Source of the DNA: Pleurocapsa sp. CCALA 161
Lineage (GTDB): Bacteria; Cyanobacteriota; Cyanobacteriia; Cyanobacteriales; Xenococcaceae
Reading direction: 5' to 3'
Assembly (NCBI RefSeq): GCF_003003995.1
Contig: NZ_PVWF01000014.1
Location: 1-59,571, forward strand
Length of the DNA stretch: 59,571 nucleotides
The notes beneath the pieces are model-generated. The model had not been told where the DNA came from and made no database searches. It was given only the letters and a program-made list of their open reading frames with translations. Position numbers and translations under genes: made by a program. The number at the start of each line of letters is the position of its first letter. Position 1 is the stretch's first letter. This document shows, in pieces, positions 21,255-59,571 of this stretch.

Positions 21255-21770
21255 ATGAAAAATAAATATTTATCTCTTGTTTTGGTTGCAGGCGCGATCG
21301 CCTTAGTTACAGTTCCTGTTAAGGCTGAAGAAAAAGCCGCTCCTGAGTCTACTAAATCTGTATTTGTTTGCGCCGCTCAAGGCGACACCCCCACCATGTT
21401 TGCCTACAACCCAGGCAAAGTAAATTTGACACCTTTGATGAGTTGGCACGCTGAATATTTATTACCAGGACAGTCTGGAGCAGAAGTCTGTCAGCAAACC
21501 GCTACAAAATTACAAACTTCCTATCAACAGGAAGATGCTAAATATTTAAAAGCTGAAACTACTAAAGAGGAAAACCAGGTTTGTTTGGTCAACAAAGAAG
21601 ACCAAAATTGTCTGGACGAGACTAGTGAAAAGCTGTTTAGCGTCAACCCTAAATTTAATGCTAGTTGTGTTTTAGAAAATAAATCTCCTATTGATTGCGA
21701 AGTATATAAAGTTCGAGGAGTATATAGTTTCAATGATGAACCATATCAACCTCTTTGGTGGCCTTGGTAG
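21255..21770 (+). CDS. COP23 domain protein, exported
   Basis: A 171-residue protein with a signal peptide (about 1-24, cleavage after VKA). The mature part matches the COP23 family, first described as a 23-kDa circadian oscillating peripheral membrane protein in Cyanothece RF-1. It has FVCAAQGDTPTMFAYN, SGAEVCQQTATKLQT, ENQVCLV and paired cysteines (six in the mature region) that probably form disulfides in the periplasm. Its molecular function is unknown. The COP23 gene lies about 330 bp before the beta-barrel/CHAT pair, probably as its own unit. Confidence 0.85.
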   Translation: MKNKYLSLVLVAGAIALVTVPVKAEEKAAPESTKSVFVCAAQGDTPTMFAYNPGKVNLTPLMSWHAEYLLPGQSGAEVCQQTATKLQTSYQQEDAKYLKAETTKEENQVCLVNKEDQNCLDETSEKLFSVNPKFNASCVLENKSPIDCEVYKVRGVYSFNDEPYQPLWWPW

Positions 21771-22099: not shown

Positions 22100-23083
22100 A
22101 TGTCTCTCATTAGAAAGTTCTTCCTTCCCTATCTAAAAATTGCTTTAATAAACATCGCTATATTGGCAGCCAGTAGTGTTCATGTTAAAGCTGAACAAAT
22201 TAAACTTTCCTCACCATCAAATTTCAGACAACCAAACAACAGCAAGTTGAGTAAAACCCAACTTCAGCCCATTCCCCTTAAAGAAAAGCTGAATAATGCT
22301 GTTGCTGCTCAACCATTAGAAGATGGTGCTCCCTCATTACGCCGTCAGCCATCGGCAGGAGAACGATTTGAACCAAAACGAATCCCATTACAACTTCCGT
22401 TTCCGAAAGAGACATACCGAACCTCTCCGAGTATCACGATTATCAATCCATCAGCTTATGGAGCAGCTTGGGGAAATGTGGGAATTGGGATCGGCTATCA
22501 AGAGAGGGCAAGATTTAGAGAAGATGCTGATGGAGTGATTGGTCTGGGCTTTGGCTTAGGAGATCCTCAAAAAAATCTTGGCTTACAGGTGGGAGTTAGT
22601 TTAGTTGATGTTAGTTCACCTTTTAGTGATGGGTCAATTAATCTCAAGCTACATCGTCGTTTACCAAAAGACTTTGCTGTTGCTATCGGCGTTCAAGGCT
22701 TAACTACGTGGGGAAATACGGACGGAGGATCATCTGTGTATGGGGTTGCTACTAAAAGGTTTAAATTACGACCAGACAGAACTAAGCCTTTTAGTGAATT
22801 GTATACAACATTGGGCGTGGGTGGCGGTCAATTCCGCTCCGAGTCCAATATCAATGAAGGTAACGAAAACGTCGGCGTTTTTGGTAGTTTAGCAGTTAAA
22901 GTGATTCAACCAATTGGTTTGGTAGCGGAATGGAGTGGTCAAGACTTAACGATTGGAGTTCCTTTGGTACCATTTAGAAAATTACCCCTCGTTATTGTTC
23001 CTTCAATTACGGATGTGACTGGTTCGGCGGGAGACGGAACAAGATTTGTTTTGGGTCTTGGCTACAGTTTTTCTTTTAAATAG
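22100..23083 (+). CDS. Predicted outer-membrane beta-barrel protein
   Basis: A 327-residue exported protein. Signal peptide about 1-31 (ends VKAEQ), then a polar Pro/Gln-rich linker to about residue 108. From about 110 to the C-terminus the sequence has alternating Gly/aromatic/hydrophobic strands with short loops, such as AAWGNVGIGIGYQER and FAVAIGVQGLTTWG, ending LGLGYSFSF-Lys. The alternation suggests about 10-12 beta strands. I do not recognise a named family. It is followed after 32 bp by the CHAT gene, so both products probably act together at the cell envelope. Confidence 0.7.
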   Translation: MSLIRKFFLPYLKIALINIAILAASSVHVKAEQIKLSSPSNFRQPNNSKLSKTQLQPIPLKEKLNNAVAAQPLEDGAPSLRRQPSAGERFEPKRIPLQLPFPKETYRTSPSITIINPSAYGAAWGNVGIGIGYQERARFREDADGVIGLGFGLGDPQKNLGLQVGVSLVDVSSPFSDGSINLKLHRRLPKDFAVAIGVQGLTTWGNTDGGSSVYGVATKRFKLRPDRTKPFSELYTTLGVGGGQFRSESNINEGNENVGVFGSLAVKVIQPIGLVAEWSGQDLTIGVPLVPFRKLPLVIVPSITDVTGSAGDGTRFVLGLGYSFSFK

Positions 23084-23115
23084 ATTATTAGTAAATTCAA
23101 AGTGAGACATCAATT

Positions 23116-24951
23116 ATGAAATTATCTCGATTATTAATAAGAGTAGTGTTGTCATGTGCGTTGATCATATCCTCTACAGAAATAGCGCGTTCTCAATCAG
23201 GTAATATGTCTGATATTACGCAACCTAATCCCAATGAGATCATGAATCAGCCTGAGCCAGATGAAGGCAACACAGCTGATAATTTGGGAGAAAACACAGC
23301 GGGGGATATCGTCGAAGAAACTCCTGTTGATAGTACTCAGCCTAATAGTGAGATAGAAACTTCTAGTCAAGAAACTCCTAGTCAAGAAACTTCTGACACA
23401 ATCAATACTCAATCTGAAATTGTTGAGAGCGAACCCGTAATAATCGAACAAACTACTGAAGCGGAAGCTGCCAACTCACCTGAGTCTGATGAAATAGTCA
23501 AAAAATTAGTTGACGAAGCTGAGCAGAGAGACATTAAAAAATCTGAGGAACCAAAGGAAGAAAAGGTAGCAGAGAAAAATTCTCAACCAGCGACGGAACA
23601 AATAGACCGTGGAGAATATGAAACTCAATTTCAAGATGCGCCTAGCGATTTAGCTATCTTGATGCAGGAAGAATTTCAACTGAATCAATTAATTGGTTCT
23701 ACGGGAATTCAACTTTATGGTTCTGTACCGTCAGTCAAACAGATTTCTCATCGATTAGCTCAGTTAGCTGAACAAACAGGCAAAAAAGCTGCCTTTATCA
23801 ATATTTCTCTGCAAAACAATCAGCTAGAGTCCTTTGTAGTTTTACCAGAGCAAGTGCAAGCAAATGCCGAAACCTCCTTAGTGGCATCATCTGAGTTAAA
23901 TGGTATTGATGCACCTCCAGCCGCTCAAGTTCCAATCATACGTAAGACAGTCAAAAACACCTCGCGAAAAGATATTATTGCTAAGGCAACAGAGTTGCGC
24001 GAAAAAATTGGTGATGTTAGAAGACTAAATCAGAATGAATACAAAAGGTCATCACAAGAGCTATACAATGTTCTGATCAAACCCATAGAAGCAGATCTAG
24101 CGGCTAATAAAATCGATGTTCTGGTATTTTCGATGGATTCAGGATTGCGTTTATTGCCTGTTGCCGCACTTTATGATGGAAAACAATTCTTGATTGAAAA
24201 GTACGCTATGGGAATGGTTCCTAGTTTTGGCTTAACTGATACTCGCTACGTGAGTCCAGCCAAGGCTTCCATTTTGGCAATGGGTGCATCAGAGTTCAAA
24301 GAGCAAGCAGACTTACCAACTATGCCTATTGAACTGAAAACTATTGTCAGTAATCCCCGTCGTGGACAATCATTTTTAAATCAACAGTTCACAATTCCCA
24401 ATTTCGTCGCTCAAAACAGTGGGCAAACACCATTTTCTATTATTCATTTAGGGACTCATGCTGAATTCAAAGCAGGTGATTTAAGCGATTCTTATATCCA
24501 GTTTTATGATAGTCAGCTAAAAATACCTCAGCTACAAAAACTATCAAATCAACTTGGTTGGAATACTAATAAGACGCCAATTGAGTTAATGGTTTTAAGC
24601 GCTTGTGAAACTGCCTTGGGAGATAAGGATGCTGAGTTAGGTTTTGCAGGATTAGCAGTACAAGCAGGGGTCAAATCTACATTGGCTAGTCTTTGGTATG
24701 TTAGCGATTTAGGAACTTTAGCTATGATGGGCGAGTTTTATGATCAGCTCGATAGTACTTTGAATAAGGCAGAGGCTTTACGTCAAACTCAGTTGGCAAT
24801 GCTGCGAGGCAATGTCAAGATTAATAACAAACAAGTTAACTTGTCCAATGGCACAGGTCTACCTCTGCCCTCAGATTTTCCAGACGGCACTTTAACTCTC
24901 AATCATCCTTATTTTTGGTCATCATTTACCCTTGTTGGTAACTGGAATTAG
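23116..24951 (+). CDS. Exported CHAT-domain (caspase-like) protein
   Basis: A 611-residue protein. The signal peptide is about 1-27, followed by a long, very acidic Glu/Thr/Ser/Gln-rich linker (about 30-165) and a CHAT domain (about 315-611). The catalytic dyad of the caspase/separase fold is intact: His448 in IIHLGTHAEF and Cys497 in VLSACETALGD. A 'SLWYVSD' segment follows, as in other CHAT proteins. The TPR repeats usual for cyanobacterial CHAT proteins are absent, replaced by the acidic linker. It is co-directional with the beta-barrel gene 32 bp upstream. Substrate and specificity are unknown. CHAT proteases in other systems act in death or defence pathways, but an exported one may work on envelope proteins. 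Confidence 0.88.
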   Translation: MKLSRLLIRVVLSCALIISSTEIARSQSGNMSDITQPNPNEIMNQPEPDEGNTADNLGENTAGDIVEETPVDSTQPNSEIETSSQETPSQETSDTINTQSEIVESEPVIIEQTTEAEAANSPESDEIVKKLVDEAEQRDIKKSEEPKEEKVAEKNSQPATEQIDRGEYETQFQDAPSDLAILMQEEFQLNQLIGSTGIQLYGSVPSVKQISHRLAQLAEQTGKKAAFINISLQNNQLESFVVLPEQVQANAETSLVASSELNGIDAPPAAQVPIIRKTVKNTSRKDIIAKATELREKIGDVRRLNQNEYKRSSQELYNVLIKPIEADLAANKIDVLVFSMDSGLRLLPVAALYDGKQFLIEKYAMGMVPSFGLTDTRYVSPAKASILAMGASEFKEQADLPTMPIELKTIVSNPRRGQSFLNQQFTIPNFVAQNSGQTPFSIIHLGTHAEFKAGDLSDSYIQFYDSQLKIPQLQKLSNQLGWNTNKTPIELMVLSACETALGDKDAELGFAGLAVQAGVKSTLASLWYVSDLGTLAMMGEFYDQLDSTLNKAEALRQTQLAMLRGNVKINNKQVNLSNGTGLPLPSDFPDGTLTLNHPYFWSSFTLVGNWN

Positions 24952-53312: not shown

Positions 53313-56300
53313 TTATGGAATCAATTTATTAGTTAAGGCAACTGCACCACTAATGATTTTTGCTAACGCTGAAGGTGCTTCTAAAGGTAGATTATGTCCC
53401 CCAGAAACAACAACTTTAACGGCATTAGGCATTGCTTCCTCTTGTTTATTTAGATCTTCCTGCCGATTGAAATTGCTTTTGTCGCCATAGACTAAAGTAA
53501 TTGGTACTTTAATTTTTTGTAAGAGTTTTAAATAGCGCGATCGCCCGATCCCGTTTAAACTAATTCCTGCTCTAGTTCGTAATAAGGGTTCCCAGCGCCA
53601 CCTTACGCCACCTTGACAGGGTTCGGTAATTCTTTCTGCTAACAACATTGCCAAAGCAGGAGAAATCGCAGGGGTTGCTTTGCGTAGACGCTCGGCAGCG
53701 GTTTTTATATCGGGGAAGACGGGATGTTCGGGAGGCGATGCCATCGAATTTAGCTGATTAGTTAAGGCAGTGGTTGGATCGTCGTTTTCTTCGGCAGTAG
53801 GCAGAATAGTTTCAACTAAGACAATATTTCTAATCGTTTGGGGTCTAATTGTCGCAAATATTGCCCCTAAGACTGAACCGAGGGAGTGACCTACCAGAAT
53901 AAACGCTTTACCTGCTAAAATCTCGACAATAGCGTCGATATCTCCTAAAAAGTCAATTAGATTATAAGAACCACCCTTGCCGACGCGATCGCTTCTACCA
54001 TGTCCGCGTAAGTCTGGGGCAATTACCCGATAACCTTTTTGAGCAAGGCGAATAGCCACTTCTGACCAGGCTGCACCCTGTTCTAAAATGCCGTGTAGGC
54101 AGAGGACTAGCGGCCCTTCTTCAGGTCCCCAGGTACATAAACAGATTTTTAAACCTCGAATAGTAATCAGGGTTTCTTCCATCAAAAGATCGACGACATC
54201 GGTACAGGCTTGATTAGGCAGTTCATATTTAAGCTCCTGGGCTAGCTGCTGAGTATAAGTGCCTAAAGCGTTCGGTAGCTTGATGCCTTTCCAGGCTTCT
54301 GCTAACTGAGCATCAATAGTTTGATGCTTGAGGAAGTTGGGATCTCCTAAAGACATGGCGGTTTCGCTCACGCCATCGGTCATGCGATCGCCCTGATAGG
54401 GAGTTAATACCGCAGCATCAAAAGGAATTTCTAGAAATTCACAAATGCCTTTGAGTACTGACTGGGGTTTACTTACTAAGTCTTCGTAATAAACTAGGTG
54501 ATAGCGTTGAGGGTCAATCTCTTCAGCTAAGTTGAGAATATTTTGATTACTTTCGCGCCAGATTAATTCTGCTAGCTGATAAGGATCGCCTTCGCCAGAA
54601 CCCACCAGCTTATCCATCCGCATTCTGGCAAAAGATTCAATTACGGAATAAGGATGACGCACTAAATGGATATATTTAGCCCCCTCAAAGATGTCTTCTG
54701 CCTTGTCTAACGTCTCGCGGTTGCTGGCGTAGGTTGGAGATTTATCGACCAACAAGCGATCGACCGCTAGCTGCTGTAGTTGTTGATAAACTTCTTTGAC
54801 GCTGACGTTTTCGGCGAGCAACTCATCTACTAACTTCTGACTTTGGGCTGCATCAATATTCTTTAATGCCATGAAAGCTCGTTTTAATCCTTCCCCAAGC
54901 TGGGATACTCCTAATTCCTGCGATCGCTCTACCATGTTATCAAAAGGCAGCAGATGCAGTTCAGGAGGAGAACAGAGAAGAGGATGTCCTGCCAGCATAA
55001 CTCGTAGTAAAGTCGATCCAGAACGAGGACTAGAAAGAATAAAAGCTGCTGGAGCTAGTTTTTCCCTGACTAGATTGCGTTTGGGCTGAGAAACTGCTAT
55101 GGCGCTTTTGCTTGCCATTTCATGAGCTTGAGCAAATTCTTTAGCTAGATATTCTGCCAGATGATTAATTTGGGGACGCTCATAGAATTCTCGGGGATAA
55201 AGAACCAACTGCAAATCTGTTTTAAGCTGGTTAATGGCTTCCATTACCATCAAAGAATCCATCCCCAGATCTAGCAAACTATCATTAATCGATAATTTAG
55301 CGGGTTCAAGCTGAAGAATTTCAGCGATCGCCGTTTGGAGATATTGAGTTAGATAGGCAGGGCGTTGGACAGGAGAAGTTGCCAATAAATCTTGGAAAAT
55401 TTGTTTATTTTCTGGTTTTTCTGTGGGAATAACTAGCTCAGAGAAATAATTGGACTGCTGTAAATAGTCAAACTTCTGGCTTAATACTTGCCAGTCAGCA
55501 TCAATTACTCCTATCTGAGTTGCTTTACTATTAAGTAACTGCTCTAAAGCTGCTAATCCAGCAGCAGGATCGATTAGATTTAAGCCCTTAATCTGAAAGC
55601 CTTGCTCAACCGCCATGCCGCTATTTGCCCAAGCACCCCAGTTGATACTTAGGGCGGGTAAATTTAGACTATGACGATAACGCGCGATCGCATCTAAACC
55701 TGCATTAGCGACAGTATAGTTACTTTGTCCTGGTGAACCAATCAAAGCAGCAACAGAGGAAAAGAGAACAAAGAAATCTAGCTCCAGATCTTGAGTTGCT
55801 TGGTGTAGATTCCAAGCCCCTACTACTTTGGGAGCAATTACCTGATGGAAACTAGACCAAGTTTGATTCTCTAGTAAGCCATCACTTAGTACTCCCGCAG
55901 CGTGAATAATTCCCTTGATCGGGCAGTCTAAGTCAGCAGCGTCAAAGATATTTTTAAGGGCTTGATAGTCAGTAATATCGGCTTGAACAGTCTTAACGGT
56001 AACCCCTTGCTGTTCTAAATTGGCGATCGCCTGTTGAGCCAACTCTGAAGGCTGACTTTTACCCATGAGAATTAAATGCTTGCCACCTCGATCTGCGAGC
56101 AGTTGAGCCACCTTCAAACCTAATGAACCTAATCCACCTGTAATTAGGTAAGCACCTCGGGAACTTAATTCTAAAGATTGACTCAAGTCAGAAATTACTC
56201 CGCCGTAAGACGATGGAGCCTTCTTACGAAGCTTGCTCAACGGGGGAAACCCCCGCAACGCAACTTCGCGCTGCTCTGAGCGTTGGTCTATATCTGTTGT

Positions 56301-59300
56301 AGTTTGCAAGCGGGGAACATAAAGCCGATCTTGTCGTATTGCTAGACGATCCTCTTGGTTTGTTTGAGTAACAACCTGGATTAACAGATCGACTTCATGG
56401 TTACTTGACCGTTGGTCAAGATCGATAATGCCACCCCAAGATTCAGGATGTTCGACGGCGATCGCACTTGCCAAACCCCATAGACAGCTTGAAGCAATGC
56501 TAGTGATATCTAATTCATTTTCTATTTTTTGATGTCCTTTAGTAGCCAGCCAGATTGGTGCAGCCACAGAATTTGCTGTTGCAGTTTGCAACAGATTTAA
56601 GATATTGGTACAGTGCTGCTGTTGATAGTTAGTAATTGCGTTGATAGTTGGCTGCTGAGGCAGATCTAAGCCAGCCAGATAAATAATCTTGTCAATGTTG
56701 GGATACTGATTAAATATCTGCGTGAACTTGTCTTCATCAAGATGGCGATCGCTAATTACTAAACAATCCTGCTGTTGATTATTTAATTTAACCTTAAGCT
56801 GTTCACCCAAATGCTCGCTGGCGAAAATTAGCCAGAACTTACCTGTAATTAACTGGGAATTTAGTTTAGTTGGGTATTCTTGCCATTGAATCTGATAAAA
56901 ATCAGTGGTTGAAACCCGCTCTGGGGAAGGTAAATAAACCTCTTGGCTGTTGCTGTTGGCTGTTTTCGCTAACCAATAGCTTTGTCTTTGGAAGGGATAA
57001 GTTGGCAGAGCAACTTTTTGCAGATTCATACCCTGAGCTACATTCTGCCAATTGATGTCTATACCGCTAAGATAAAGTGAACTTAAACTCTGTAATACTT
57101 GCTGCCAATCTTTCTTTTTGGGGCGTAAGCTTGGTAACCAAATGTTGGTTTGACCAGCAACAGATATATTAGAACGTCCCATGCTAATGAGAATTGGTTT
57201 TGAGCCAATTTCTAAAAAGATATTACATTCTGCCTGTAAAGTTTTCATCCCTTCAGCAAAACGCACGGGAGCAACTACATGATTGATCCAATATTCAGCA
57301 GTGGCAATTTCAGCGGTAGCTAAATTTCCTGTCACGTTAGAAATTAATTTTCCTTGGGGTGGATAATATTCTACCGACTCGGCAATCTTGCTAAATTCTG
57401 GCAAAATTGGCTGCATCAACGGAGAATGAAAAGCATGAGATACTTTCAATTGCTTAGTTTTGATCCCCAAAGAATCAAACTTACTCACCACTTCGGCAAC
57501 TGCGGTTTGCTCTCCAGAAATGACAATACTTTGGTCAGTATTAATAGCAGCGATCGCTATTTTGGTAGCAAAAGGTGCAATGATTGATTTGACTGTATCC
57601 TCGTCTGTCAACACTGCAAACATATCTCCTTGGGGCAAGTTCTGCATGAGCTTCCCGCGCATTGCCACTAGCTTGAGGGCATCTGCTAAACTGAATACCC
57701 CCGCGATCGTCGCTGCCACATATTCACCGACACTATGACCAATTAAGGCTGTGGGTTTAATACCCCAGTCGATCCACATCTGCGTCAAGGCGTATTCTAA
57801 GGCAAAAATTGCTGGTTGAGTATAGGCTGTCTCGTTTAACCAAGATGAGGGATGAGGGCTAGTGGATGAAGGATATTCGGCAAATAAGATTTCCAGCAGA
57901 GAATGTTCTAAATAGGCGTGCAGAATGTTGGCACAGCGATCTATAGCTGCTTTAAAGACTGGCTGAGTTTGATATAGCTCATAGCCCATGTTTACATACT
58001 GAGAGCCTTGTCCTGTAAAGAGCAAGGCGACTTGATTATCATTGTCGGTATGACCCACCGCAATTGCTTTAGCTGATCGCTGGGTAAGAAAATTTGCCAG
58101 CTGTTCTTGAAGCTGAGTTTTTGTCTTAACTGCGATCGCCAAACGATGATTAAAATGCGTTCTGCCAACATTCGCCGTGTAGCAAATATCAGCTAAGTTA
58201 GAATCGGCATCGCTCTTCAGATAATTTTGATAACTCAAAACTAAATCTTTGAGAGCAGGTTCAGTTTTGGCCGATAGAGTTAATATGTGCCATGAGCGTT
58301 GTGGTGATTCAGCCTTGTTTTTCTCAGCGATGCCTGTCTGCCCCATTCCTAAGACAACATGGGCATTTGTACCACCAAAGCCGAAGGAACTAACCCCAGC
58401 ATATCTCGCCCCACCATTCCAAGGCTGTAGTTTTTGAGGAATAGTAATTTTGCTGTCTGCCAAATCAATTAACGGATTTAGCTGGTGAAAGTGCAGATTA
58501 GGGGGAATCGCCTCATGCTGTAGACAAAGCACTGCTTTAATCAACCCCGCAATCCCAGCTGCTGCCTCTAGATGCCCGATATTAGTTTTCAGCGAACCCA
58601 GATAACAAGATTCTGACCTTGCCCCTAAAACAGCCTTGAGAGAATTAACCTCAATGGGATCACCCAAAGATGTCCCCGTACCGTGAGATTCAATGTAGCT
58701 CACCTCGTCAGGAGATATATTGGCATTAGCCAAAGCCTGACGAATTACCGCCTGTTGCGACAAACCATTAGGAGCAGTCAAACCGTTACTCCGACCGTCT
58801 TGATTGATCGCCGAACCTTTAATTACTGCTAAAATACGATCCCCATCTCGTTGAGCATCTGCCAAACGCTTGAGGATCACTACCCCACAGCCTTCCCCAC
58901 GGACATAACCGTCCGCTTCAGCATCAAAGGTCTTACAACGCCCATTCTCCGCCATCATCCCTGCCATTTCAAAGGTTTGGCTGAGTTCAGGAGATAAGAT
59001 CAAATTAACTCCAGCAGCGATCGCGCGATCGCATTCTCCTGTTTTCAAACTCTGACTAGCTAAGTGTAACGCCACCAAAGAGGAAGAACAAGCGGTATCG
59101 ACTGCTAGAGAAGGACCTTTGAGGTCAAATATATAAGACAGACGATTGGCAGCGATGCTATGAGCATTCCCTGTACCTAAATAAGCATCTACATCTGTCC
59201 CATAGTGAAACCTCAGTTGGGAATAATCACTGCTGCTGATGCCAATAAACACCCCTGTGTTGCTTCCCGCCAAGTCATTGCCCGCTATAGCTGCATCTTC

Positions 59301-59571
59301 TAAAGCTGACCAACTTACTTCTAAAAGCAATCTTTGCTGAGGATCGATACTTTGCGCTTCACGGGGAGTAATCCCAAAAAACTGCGGATCGAATCGATCT
59401 ACTCCCTCAATAAAACCGCCCCAGCCCGAGCCTGACCAGCGATCGCCTACTGTACTAATCCGATCCTGTCCATCCCGCAATAGCTGCCAAAATTCTTCTG
59501 GATTATTCGCCCCAGGAAAACGACACCCAATCCCAATGATGGCAATAGCCGATTCCTCTATTCTGCCTTGT
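53313..59571 (-). CDS. ols: Type I PKS, olefin synthase-like (KS-AT-KR-ACP-ST-TE), 5' end outside window
   Basis: At least 2085 residues, open to the right edge; the first in-window codon is at 59570 and residues are numbered from there. KS: Cys161, His296 and His333 (ACSSSL, HGTGTS, NIGHLE). AT: Ser613 in GHSVGEY, with HAFHS (712-716) indicating malonyl-CoA. KR: TGGLGSLG near 1144, Ser1272, Tyr1285 and Asn1289. ACP: Ser1439 in GMDSL. Sulfotransferase: PAPS site RSGST (1516-1520) and RHPYS near 1638. TE: Ser1896 in GHSLG and His2059. No DH or ER is present. This order equals the C-terminal module of cyanobacterial olefin synthase and CurM: one extension, ketoreduction, beta-sulfation, then hydrolysis with decarboxylative loss of sulfate to a terminal alkene. 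A loading (FAAL-ACP) module is expected beyond the edge. The segment between the AT and the KR nucleotide-binding motif contains a translated repeat insertion. Confidence 0.93.
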   Translation of the reverse strand, partial: QGRIEESAIAIIGIGCRFPGANNPEEFWQLLRDGQDRISTVGDRWSGSGWGGFIEGVDRFDPQFFGITPREAQSIDPQQRLLLEVSWSALEDAAIAGNDLAGSNTGVFIGISSSDYSQLRFHYGTDVDAYLGTGNAHSIAANRLSYIFDLKGPSLAVDTACSSSLVALHLASQSLKTGECDRAIAAGVNLILSPELSQTFEMAGMMAENGRCKTFDAEADGYVRGEGCGVVILKRLADAQRDGDRILAVIKGSAINQDGRSNGLTAPNGLSQQAVIRQALANANISPDEVSYIESHGTGTSLGDPIEVNSLKAVLGARSESCYLGSLKTNIGHLEAAAGIAGLIKAVLCLQHEAIPPNLHFHQLNPLIDLADSKITIPQKLQPWNGGARYAGVSSFGFGGTNAHVVLGMGQTGIAEKNKAESPQRSWHILTLSAKTEPALKDLVLSYQNYLKSDADSNLADICYTANVGRTHFNHRLAIAVKTKTQLQEQLANFLTQRSAKAIAVGHTDNDNQVALLFTGQGSQYVNMGYELYQTQPVFKAAIDRCANILHAYLEHSLLEILFAEYPSSTSPHPSSWLNETAYTQPAIFALEYALTQMWIDWGIKPTALIGHSVGEYVAATIAGVFSLADALKLVAMRGKLMQNLPQGDMFAVLTDEDTVKSIIAPFATKIAIAAINTDQSIVISGEQTAVAEVVSKFDSLGIKTKQLKVSHAFHSPLMQPILPEFSKIAESVEYYPPQGKLISNVTGNLATAEIATAEYWINHVVAPVRFAEGMKTLQAECNIFLEIGSKPILISMGRSNISVAGQTNIWLPSLRPKKKDWQQVLQSLSSLYLSGIDINWQNVAQGMNLQKVALPTYPFQRQSYWLAKTANSNSQEVYLPSPERVSTTDFYQIQWQEYPTKLNSQLITGKFWLIFASEHLGEQLKVKLNNQQQDCLVISDRHLDEDKFTQIFNQYPNIDKIIYLAGLDLPQQPTINAITNYQQQHCTNILNLLQTATANSVAAPIWLATKGHQKIENELDITSIASSCLWGLASAIAVEHPESWGGIIDLDQRSSNHEVDLLIQVVTQTNQEDRLAIRQDRLYVPRLQTTTDIDQRSEQREVALRGFPPLSKLRKKAPSSYGGVISDLSQSLELSSRGAYLITGGLGSLGLKVAQLLADRGGKHLILMGKSQPSELAQQAIANLEQQGVTVKTVQADITDYQALKNIFDAADLDCPIKGIIHAAGVLSDGLLENQTWSSFHQVIAPKVVGAWNLHQATQDLELDFFVLFSSVAALIGSPGQSNYTVANAGLDAIARYRHSLNLPALSINWGAWANSGMAVEQGFQIKGLNLIDPAAGLAALEQLLNSKATQIGVIDADWQVLSQKFDYLQQSNYFSELVIPTEKPENKQIFQDLLATSPVQRPAYLTQYLQTAIAEILQLEPAKLSINDSLLDLGMDSLMVMEAINQLKTDLQLVLYPREFYERPQINHLAEYLAKEFAQAHEMASKSAIAVSQPKRNLVREKLAPAAFILSSPRSGSTLLRVMLAGHPLLCSPPELHLLPFDNMVERSQELGVSQLGEGLKRAFMALKNIDAAQSQKLVDELLAENVSVKEVYQQLQQLAVDRLLVDKSPTYASNRETLDKAEDIFEGAKYIHLVRHPYSVIESFARMRMDKLVGSGEGDPYQLAELIWRESNQNILNLAEEIDPQRYHLVYYEDLVSKPQSVLKGICEFLEIPFDAAVLTPYQGDRMTDGVSETAMSLGDPNFLKHQTIDAQLAEAWKGIKLPNALGTYTQQLAQELKYELPNQACTDVVDLLMEETLITIRGLKICLCTWGPEEGPLVLCLHGILEQGAAWSEVAIRLAQKGYRVIAPDLRGHGRSDRVGKGGSYNLIDFLGDIDAIVEILAGKAFILVGHSLGSVLGAIFATIRPQTIRNIVLVETILPTAEENDDPTTALTNQLNSMASPPEHPVFPDIKTAAERLRKATPAISPALAMLLAERITEPCQGGVRWRWEPLLRTRAGISLNGIGRSRYLKLLQKIKVPITLVYGDKSNFNRQEDLNKQEEAMPNAVKVVVSGGHNLPLEAPSALAKIISGAVALTNKLIP
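56208..56288. repeat. Interspersed palindromic repeat translated inside the PKS
   Basis: About 80 bp centred on the palindrome CGGGGG-AAA-CCCCCG (56241-56255), with ACGAAG/CTTCGCG arms, encodes about 27 basic residues (about 1095-1121) between the AT and the KR nucleotide-binding motif. The GGGGGTTTCCCCC-type core is a known style of cyanobacterial interspersed element (from memory). Confidence 0.65.

Follow-up and report, generated by a model that had tools for sequence, protein, structure and literature searches.

How proteins are placed at or beyond the cyanobacterial outer membrane is poorly understood. In two-partner secretion (TPS, type Vb), a TpsB transporter of the Omp85 superfamily is paired with a TpsA cargo. 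Tethering porins with SLH domains have been described, i.e., the SLH-OprB porins of cyanobacteria (SomA type) and OmpM (excerpts of PMC8707739 and PMC10628300), and HetF of Anabaena, a CHAT-domain putative protease, has been tied to the divisome (excerpts of PMC8406250). Here, we analyzed a 59,571-nucleotide stretch of DNA from Pleurocapsa sp. CCALA 161 (contig NZ_PVWF01000014.1 of assembly GCF_003003995.1, positions 1 to 59,571; hereafter the window), in which a gene for a predicted outer-membrane beta-barrel is followed by a gene for an export-like protein with a C-terminal CHAT protease domain.

Both open reading frames (ORFs) were found where an initial annotation of this DNA had placed a two-gene envelope module, on the plus strand and 32 bp apart (Table 1), and the export-like N-termini of both products, as well as residues His448 and Cys497 of the second, were verified. 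Export signals were judged by a simple home-made signal-peptide rule, which fires on 6 of the 34 window ORFs of at least 150 amino acids. Our best explanation, held with evenly poised confidence, is a two-gene envelope module whose barrel docks or exports a tagged partner, in this case a stalked CHAT protease. The first gene would supply an outer-membrane beta-barrel, and the second a Sec-exported partner whose mature N-terminus would be a short tag (QSGNMSDIT). The tag may dock in or on the barrel, the partner being held at the outer membrane and perhaps passed outside. Behind the tag there would follow a disordered acidic stalk of variable length and then the CHAT protease, which might cleave periplasmic or surface-located substrates. 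Barrel and tag would be the constant part of such a module and the end domain the swapped part, with the stalk also variable, because other branches carry other domains, some of them behind the same tag.

To place the pair in context, we considered the genes that follow relatives of the barrel gene. A same-strand gene lay no more than 250 bp downstream in 81 of 86 barrel loci, and 69 of these 81 encoded export-like products without a later membrane span; control neighbours were export-like in 15/72, 21/74, 15/70 and 17/64 cases (21-28%). The 79 typed partners comprised 13 with CHAT, 48 with a helical-looking domain that has no Pfam name (YN) and 18 with neither, while three further partners shared a large, distinct domain without a Pfam match. 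The C-terminal parts of partners thus include at least three kinds without detectable mutual similarity (CHAT, YN and large). The initial annotation had held that the pairing would be accidental if homologues of the barrel rarely sat beside CHAT genes. For the barrel family as a whole such rarity is indeed what we found (13 of 79), and CHAT was rejected as its general partner, whereas within the window barrel's own clade the pairing is nearly universal. Other barrel clades pair with other proteins, mostly export-like, and the barrel-CHAT pair is, on the sequence evidence, one branch of a wider predicted module of barrel plus exported partner present in many cyanobacteria.

Within that branch, the same CHAT gene lay behind the barrel in 6/6 barrel relatives, or at least its start did where the contig ended (L008-L010). 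Five aligned relatives with 60-95% identity, together with the frameshifted L011, were all located beside CHAT genes, the closest named ones being Hyellaceae cyanobacterium CSU_1_1 (barrel 95% identical) and a Myxosarcina (66%). In a phylum-wide sample of 386 genomes, of which the barrel profile matched 61, all nine CHAT-partner-profile matches of at least 720 bits were linked to a barrel; the next match (G308, 562 bits) had none. From this search 80 stretches were taken, the weakest or shortest rows being left out. A barrel relative was present in 0/12 other CHAT-bearing stretches that were opened, four of which were shortened by contig ends. Loci L007 and L043 lie on one contig and were counted once, except that L007 was kept in the neighbour-control counts; L006 and L165 also share a contig, and L008, L009 and L010 recur in the family search below.

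A second sample of 388 genomes, at the level of the order, was searched by scoring the best five barrel and best three CHAT candidates per genome. For CHAT rows with E <= 1e-165, a barrel within 9 kb of the profile-match edges was found upstream on the same strand in 73/82, as close as 1.3 kb or less in 70 of the 73. Six of the nine unpaired rows were contig-edge cases (G407, G403, G386, G393, G395, G539); the others were a tagged orphan (L198), G308 without a barrel, and G522, which was left unopened. Reciprocally, 75 of 77 evaluable barrels of at least 284 bits had CHAT downstream, and the other two had a YN partner; the rows entered for this count were those listed down to 254 bits plus G442. 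Among the 82 barrels above the 284-bit threshold, coordinates alone gave CHAT in 70; five of the 12 others end at contig ends, and five proved CHAT-linked on opening, one of them frameshifted. One barrel had three tandem CHAT genes. In the band of 255-284 bits, 0/32 barrels had CHAT by the list, a lower bound because the ten loci opened revealed one CHAT (L204), along with six YN and three large partners. In the taxonomic family of the source genome, a CHAT-type barrel occurred in 22/27 genomes, with an adjacent CHAT gene in 17; the other five barrels were cut at contig ends, and a CHAT gene was found close to where a different contig ends. A further genome (81% complete) had only a CHAT gene, cut at the contig start, and four had neither gene at the thresholds used. 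The pairing noted in the initial annotation is conserved in both directions (73/82 and 75/77).

The CHAT label mapped onto the barrel tree as one change, with Shimodaira-Hasegawa-like approximate likelihood-ratio (SH-aLRT) support of 93 in an 81-row tree (L008-L010 labelled CHAT from the partner start only; L120-L122 left out) and of 78 in a 63-row tree that included later loci and represented two distant clades by 8 rows only. Given these supports, a single origin of the CHAT pairing is favoured, not proved. Reciprocal counts and tree mapping together rule out accidental neighbours.

The partner proteins of this clade share a short N-terminal tag. In 11 aligned CHAT partners, S32 was invariant and G29, N30, D33 and T35 were nearly so, while the sequence downstream was unconserved; most rows fit the consensus Q[ST]GN[MQ]SD[IV]T behind the signal peptide, from which L050 departs. 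Some non-CHAT partners of related barrels also carry the tag (GNxSDxTG) immediately behind the signal peptide. The patterns N.SD.T and N.SD..G were composed by eye after the sequences had been viewed. In the first sample (first 110 residues) they matched 22/81 partners, i.e., 13/14 CHAT and 9/67 others, versus 1/324 other neighbours. The same patterns were then applied to loci opened later (first 130 residues), where they matched 15/20 partners (CHAT 8/9, YN 4/8, large 3/3) versus 0/88 other ORFs; partners were picked there as CHAT or YN matches or as the next same-strand gene, and the control ORFs included antisense frames. NxSD was placed directly after a cleavage-site pattern in 21 of the 22 partners bearing it. 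In an automatic motif model built from 47 non-CHAT partners, ten of 14 CHAT partners were outscored by 0-7 of 300 shuffles, the weaker cases being L048 (14 shuffles above), L011 (38), L010 (108) and L050 (135). In the source genome, GNx[ST]DxT stood directly behind an export signal in the CHAT partner only, and wider use of the tag there was not seen (15 DNA pattern matches versus 12 for a control pattern).

The NxSD tag was found with one barrel clade only. In distant clades, partners carry other Gly/Ser-rich stretches at the same place (GTAGxxSG and SGD types), and among 46 motif-typed partners the motif type tracked the barrel clade with two changes, compared with a minimum of 15 in 200 shuffles; these types, too, were defined by eye once the sequences had been viewed. 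These data bear on a further alternative, that the two products are merely co-expressed envelope proteins of one operon that never come into contact, the tag having come down along with the signal peptide. Joint descent of the two is conceivable; however, the tag persists across different end domains and rebuilt stalks, and among the barrel clades found it is confined to one. We regard co-expression without contact as very improbable.

Between tag and CHAT domain lies the acidic segment, with 36 Asp/Glu and 8 Lys/Arg in the 136 residues 29-164 of the window protein. In 17 tagged copies from the source genome's family (two on one contig), the stalk measured ~127-822 residues and was 19-32% acidic, its length being measured approximately, from the tag to a point 330 residues ahead of the Cys motif. 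Its repeats differ from genome to genome, the window copy having a 15-bp repeat, and five genomes have assembly breaks within or next to the stalk. The longest stalk (~822 residues, acidic repeats) belongs to a CHAT partner of 1298 residues at L168 209-4105. Outside this family, some partners are nearly without a stalk (L044 and L047, a few dozen residues). The initial annotation had described an acidic linker in place of TPRs: acidity and the lack of TPRs hold, but a long linker is not general. The segment has the pattern expected of a spacer that may vary freely in length.

The CHAT domain itself (PF12770) was matched with 204.3 bits against a curated cut-off of 24, and a Pfam scan of the protein gave CHAT only, with no TPR. 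His448, which we take to be the catalytic His, and Cys497 are both intact (His444 is present as well), and this dyad was invariant in the 11 aligned partners. A pattern in which the His was fixed and any residue was allowed at the Cys position picked up 40 CHAT rows (39 distinct records, as L006 and L165 are the same contig), and the dyad Cys was kept in 40/40. The protein is a probable protease, although proteolysis of any substrate is predicted from the domain and its dyad. A lipoprotein was rejected, as no lipobox cysteine was found at the cleavage site; Cys14 does not qualify, being embedded in the hydrophobic stretch and unconserved. A known anti-phage defence system was likewise rejected, with 0 PADLOC families for the three window proteins scanned.

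An exported CHAT protein had initially been considered unusual, a view that our data do not bear out: the search found five CHAT proteins in the source genome, all with an export-like start by the same rule, and three with TPRs. Since 5/5 look exported, an export-like CHAT protein is ordinary in this genome, and the barrel partner is the special part. At a separate locus of the source genome (L162 64-6676), a TPR-CHAT protein adjoins a TPS-domain protein and a ShlB/FhaC transporter.

The pair might instead form an envelope-damage sensor, which is the main rival to our proposal. The partner would then be periplasmic and its tag held by the barrel, damage freeing the stalk and activating the protease, with envelope cleavage or death as the outcome. 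A disordered N-terminal linker, a globular end domain and an outer-membrane partner resemble RcsF with OmpA/OmpC/OmpF (excerpts of PMC7553776), and a CHAT protein acts as a switchable protease in Craspase (excerpts of PMC9729208). On the other hand, the CHAT protein has no lipobox, a Pfam scan of 77 partners gave no convincing enzyme domain among the 67 without CHAT, and a stalk of up to 822 residues seems beyond what the periplasm needs. A damage sensor is unlikely in our view, while more credible than the other two alternatives. For the docking or exporting module that we prefer, the side of the membrane on which the protease would act is likewise a matter of leaning: the freedom of stalk length leans towards the outside, and the periplasm is favoured by the fact that we know of no export route through a barrel of such modest size.

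The first protein is a predicted outer-membrane beta-barrel. It combines a signal peptide, alternating amphipathic strands and an aromatic C-terminus: in residues 106-327, hydrophobic/polar alternation reached 1.057, compared with 0.762 in shuffled sequences, and 0/500 shuffles were as high, versus 97/500 for the CHAT domain and 193/500 for a COP23 protein used as controls. In the wider family, 62/86 members passed the export rule, and 57/86 had an aromatic residue in the last or penultimate position. Pfam barrel models were matched by three of 84 members (OMP_b-brl twice, YfaZ once), and further models were matched as well (TIGR04565 once; the SLH-bearing porin model por_somb six times, perhaps via SLH alone). 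Because the window protein itself has no family match, yet shows this alternation and has relatives matching barrel models, we call it a predicted barrel. SLH domains occur in 6/84 family members. SLH segments were seen before the barrel in L052, L053, L058, L194, L195 and L203 (L053 and L203 checked, the others by eye), and their partners are of the YN type and mostly tagged (not L053). A tie from cell wall through barrel to partner is possible in these relatives.

A dedicated gene pair in which one N-terminal tag precedes different C-terminal domains is also the pattern of a secretion pair, and at L197 332-6198 three tandem CHAT genes, each with its own tag, stand behind one barrel. The barrel could then be a small export pore, from which a freed CHAT protein would act on other cells or on the extracellular matrix. 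Against this, neither the 84 barrels nor the 77 partners scanned showed an Omp85, POTRA or TPS domain at E 0.01, and reading of the window revealed nothing immunity-like behind the CHAT gene. Secretion with release is improbable in our view.

Several observations weigh against the docking or exporting module that we favour. No N-terminal pattern matched 33/79 partners or 5/20 of the second sample. The automatic motif model, built from the 47 non-CHAT partners, was blurred and performed far worse than the patterns composed by eye, and the best of 324 control neighbours (7.3) scored higher than the window tag (6.3). At L198 585-2276 a tagged CHAT gene stands without an adjacent barrel; that genome has barrels elsewhere and may use one in trans. 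Pfam, NCBIfam and PADLOC gave zero matches for the window barrel protein. Since sequence searches of solved structures gave no useful relative, the barrel fold and its docking stay at the level of prediction. Two designed SAKe proteins that matched the barrel protein (whole-sequence E 1.8e-7 and 5.3e-7) were judged chance matches; no single stretch passed, and the matched residues, 70-122, belong to the part ahead of the barrel. A scan for promoters and terminators gave chance level only. Finally, we are not aware of any folded protease that is exported by a barrel of such a size.

Table 1. Features of the barrel-CHAT locus in window coordinates
Feature	Position	Strand	Basis
Barrel gene, 327 aa, predicted outer-membrane beta-barrel	22100..23083	+	ORF; relatives beside CHAT genes; residue alternation
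Barrel signal peptide, ~residues 1-31 (...HVKA/EQ)	22100..22192	+	Signal-peptide rule; site by eye
Pre-barrel segment, residues 32-105, conserved LRRxPxxxERFEPxRIPLxxP	22193..22414	+	Alignment A1; weaker LRQ..LP in the wide family
Predicted barrel domain, residues 106-327, C-terminal GYSFSFK	22415..23080	+	Block conserved in 84 family members; alternation test
CHAT gene, 611 aa, predicted exported	23116..24951	+	ORF; Pfam CHAT
CHAT-protein signal peptide, residues 1-26 (...ARS/Q)	23116..23193	+	Signal-peptide rule
N-terminal tag QSGNMSDITQPNP, immediately behind the signal peptide	23194..23232	+	Conservation in 11 aligned CHAT partners; some non-CHAT partners
Acidic low-complexity stalk, residues 40-164	23233..23607	+	Length and repeats vary by genome; 15-bp repeat at 23355-23394
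Stalk-to-CHAT segment, residues 165-310	23608..24045	+	Partial conservation in alignments A5 and A6
CHAT domain, residues 311-609	24046..24942	+	Pfam PF12770, E 3.6e-60
His448 codon, catalytic-type (HLGTH)	24457..24459	+	Invariant in A5
Cys497 codon, catalytic-type (LSACETALG)	24604..24606	+	Cys in 40/40 pattern-matched rows

Comparison with L006 gave dN/dS values of 0.23 for the barrel and 0.16 for CHAT. Upstream of the barrel gene, at 21255-21770, lies a gene for a protein of the COP23 family (circadian oscillating protein; Pfam E 3.3e-12). In the window and in L006, L008, L009, L010 and L043, such a gene precedes the barrel by 103-551 bp; a further seven of the 86 loci, as well as two of the 20 opened later, have one no more than about 5 kb away from the barrel (all loci besides the window: L006, L008-L010, L043, L054-L056, L096, L100, L105, L109, L194, L195). 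They also occur near barrels whose partner is not CHAT, and in 1/12 of the other CHAT stretches. Behind the SLH barrel module, a trypsin-like protease gene lies beside the COP23 gene at L194 826-2010 (Pfam) and L195 3451-4638 (by eye), and a dnaK-like gene was seen by eye near the barrel module in L011, L202 and L207. Elsewhere in the window, 53313-59480 is presumably a large polyketide synthase ORF with a sulfotransferase-/hydrolase-like end, as in olefin synthases.

A barrel gene followed by a tagged and exchangeable partner would offer a signal of some ten residues that can be tested, together with a named partner protein. It would also put a CHAT protease at the cell envelope in the company of a constant partner. 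Should the tag bind the barrel, display of proteins on cyanobacteria could be one application. Like the initial annotation, we could not match the pair to a described system: no description of a barrel-CHAT module was found in the open-access literature searched, in which no query joined 'barrel' with 'CHAT' and which left subscription papers and preprints outside its scope.

Among described systems, two-partner secretion resembles the present pair in that an outer-membrane protein and a Sec-exported partner dedicated to it are encoded side by side, the partner bearing an N-terminal signal region. Unlike TpsB, however, the window barrel has neither POTRA nor Omp85, and none of the 77 partners scanned has a TPS domain; the tag measures ~10 residues here, versus 252 profile positions for the TPS domain. 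Two-partner secretion was therefore ruled out, the same library detecting its components in L162. The SLH-bearing members of the barrel family recall the SomA-type porins and OmpM, whereas the window barrel has no SLH match. To our knowledge, SLH porins have not been described with an obligate tagged partner. RcsF, in contrast to the CHAT partner, is a lipoprotein; here the partner gene is adjacent and the end domain is a CHAT protease. In HetF, CHAT lies within the first 555 residues of a protein with a transmembrane segment and TPRs (excerpts of PMC8406250), whereas the window protein has a C-terminal CHAT, no TPR, an export-like start and a barrel partner. The TPR-CHAT protein of type III-E Craspase also has a CHAT protease domain, but the window protein is without TPRs and export-like, and a barrel takes the place of the RNA-guided partner. 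By mechanism, the module would stand near two-partner secretion or pairs of outer-membrane protein and lipoprotein, but it lacks those of their defining features that could be tested. It looks like a means, so far undescribed, of retaining or presenting enzymes at the cell envelope. Only tentatively do we go further and suggest an undescribed outer-membrane export or display system, in which the small barrel would recognize a ten-residue tag at the mature N-terminus of the Sec-exported partner and anchor or export its bearer, with unrelated end domains swapped behind the tag, among them a caspase-like protease on a stalk whose length would differ between genomes through repeat turnover.

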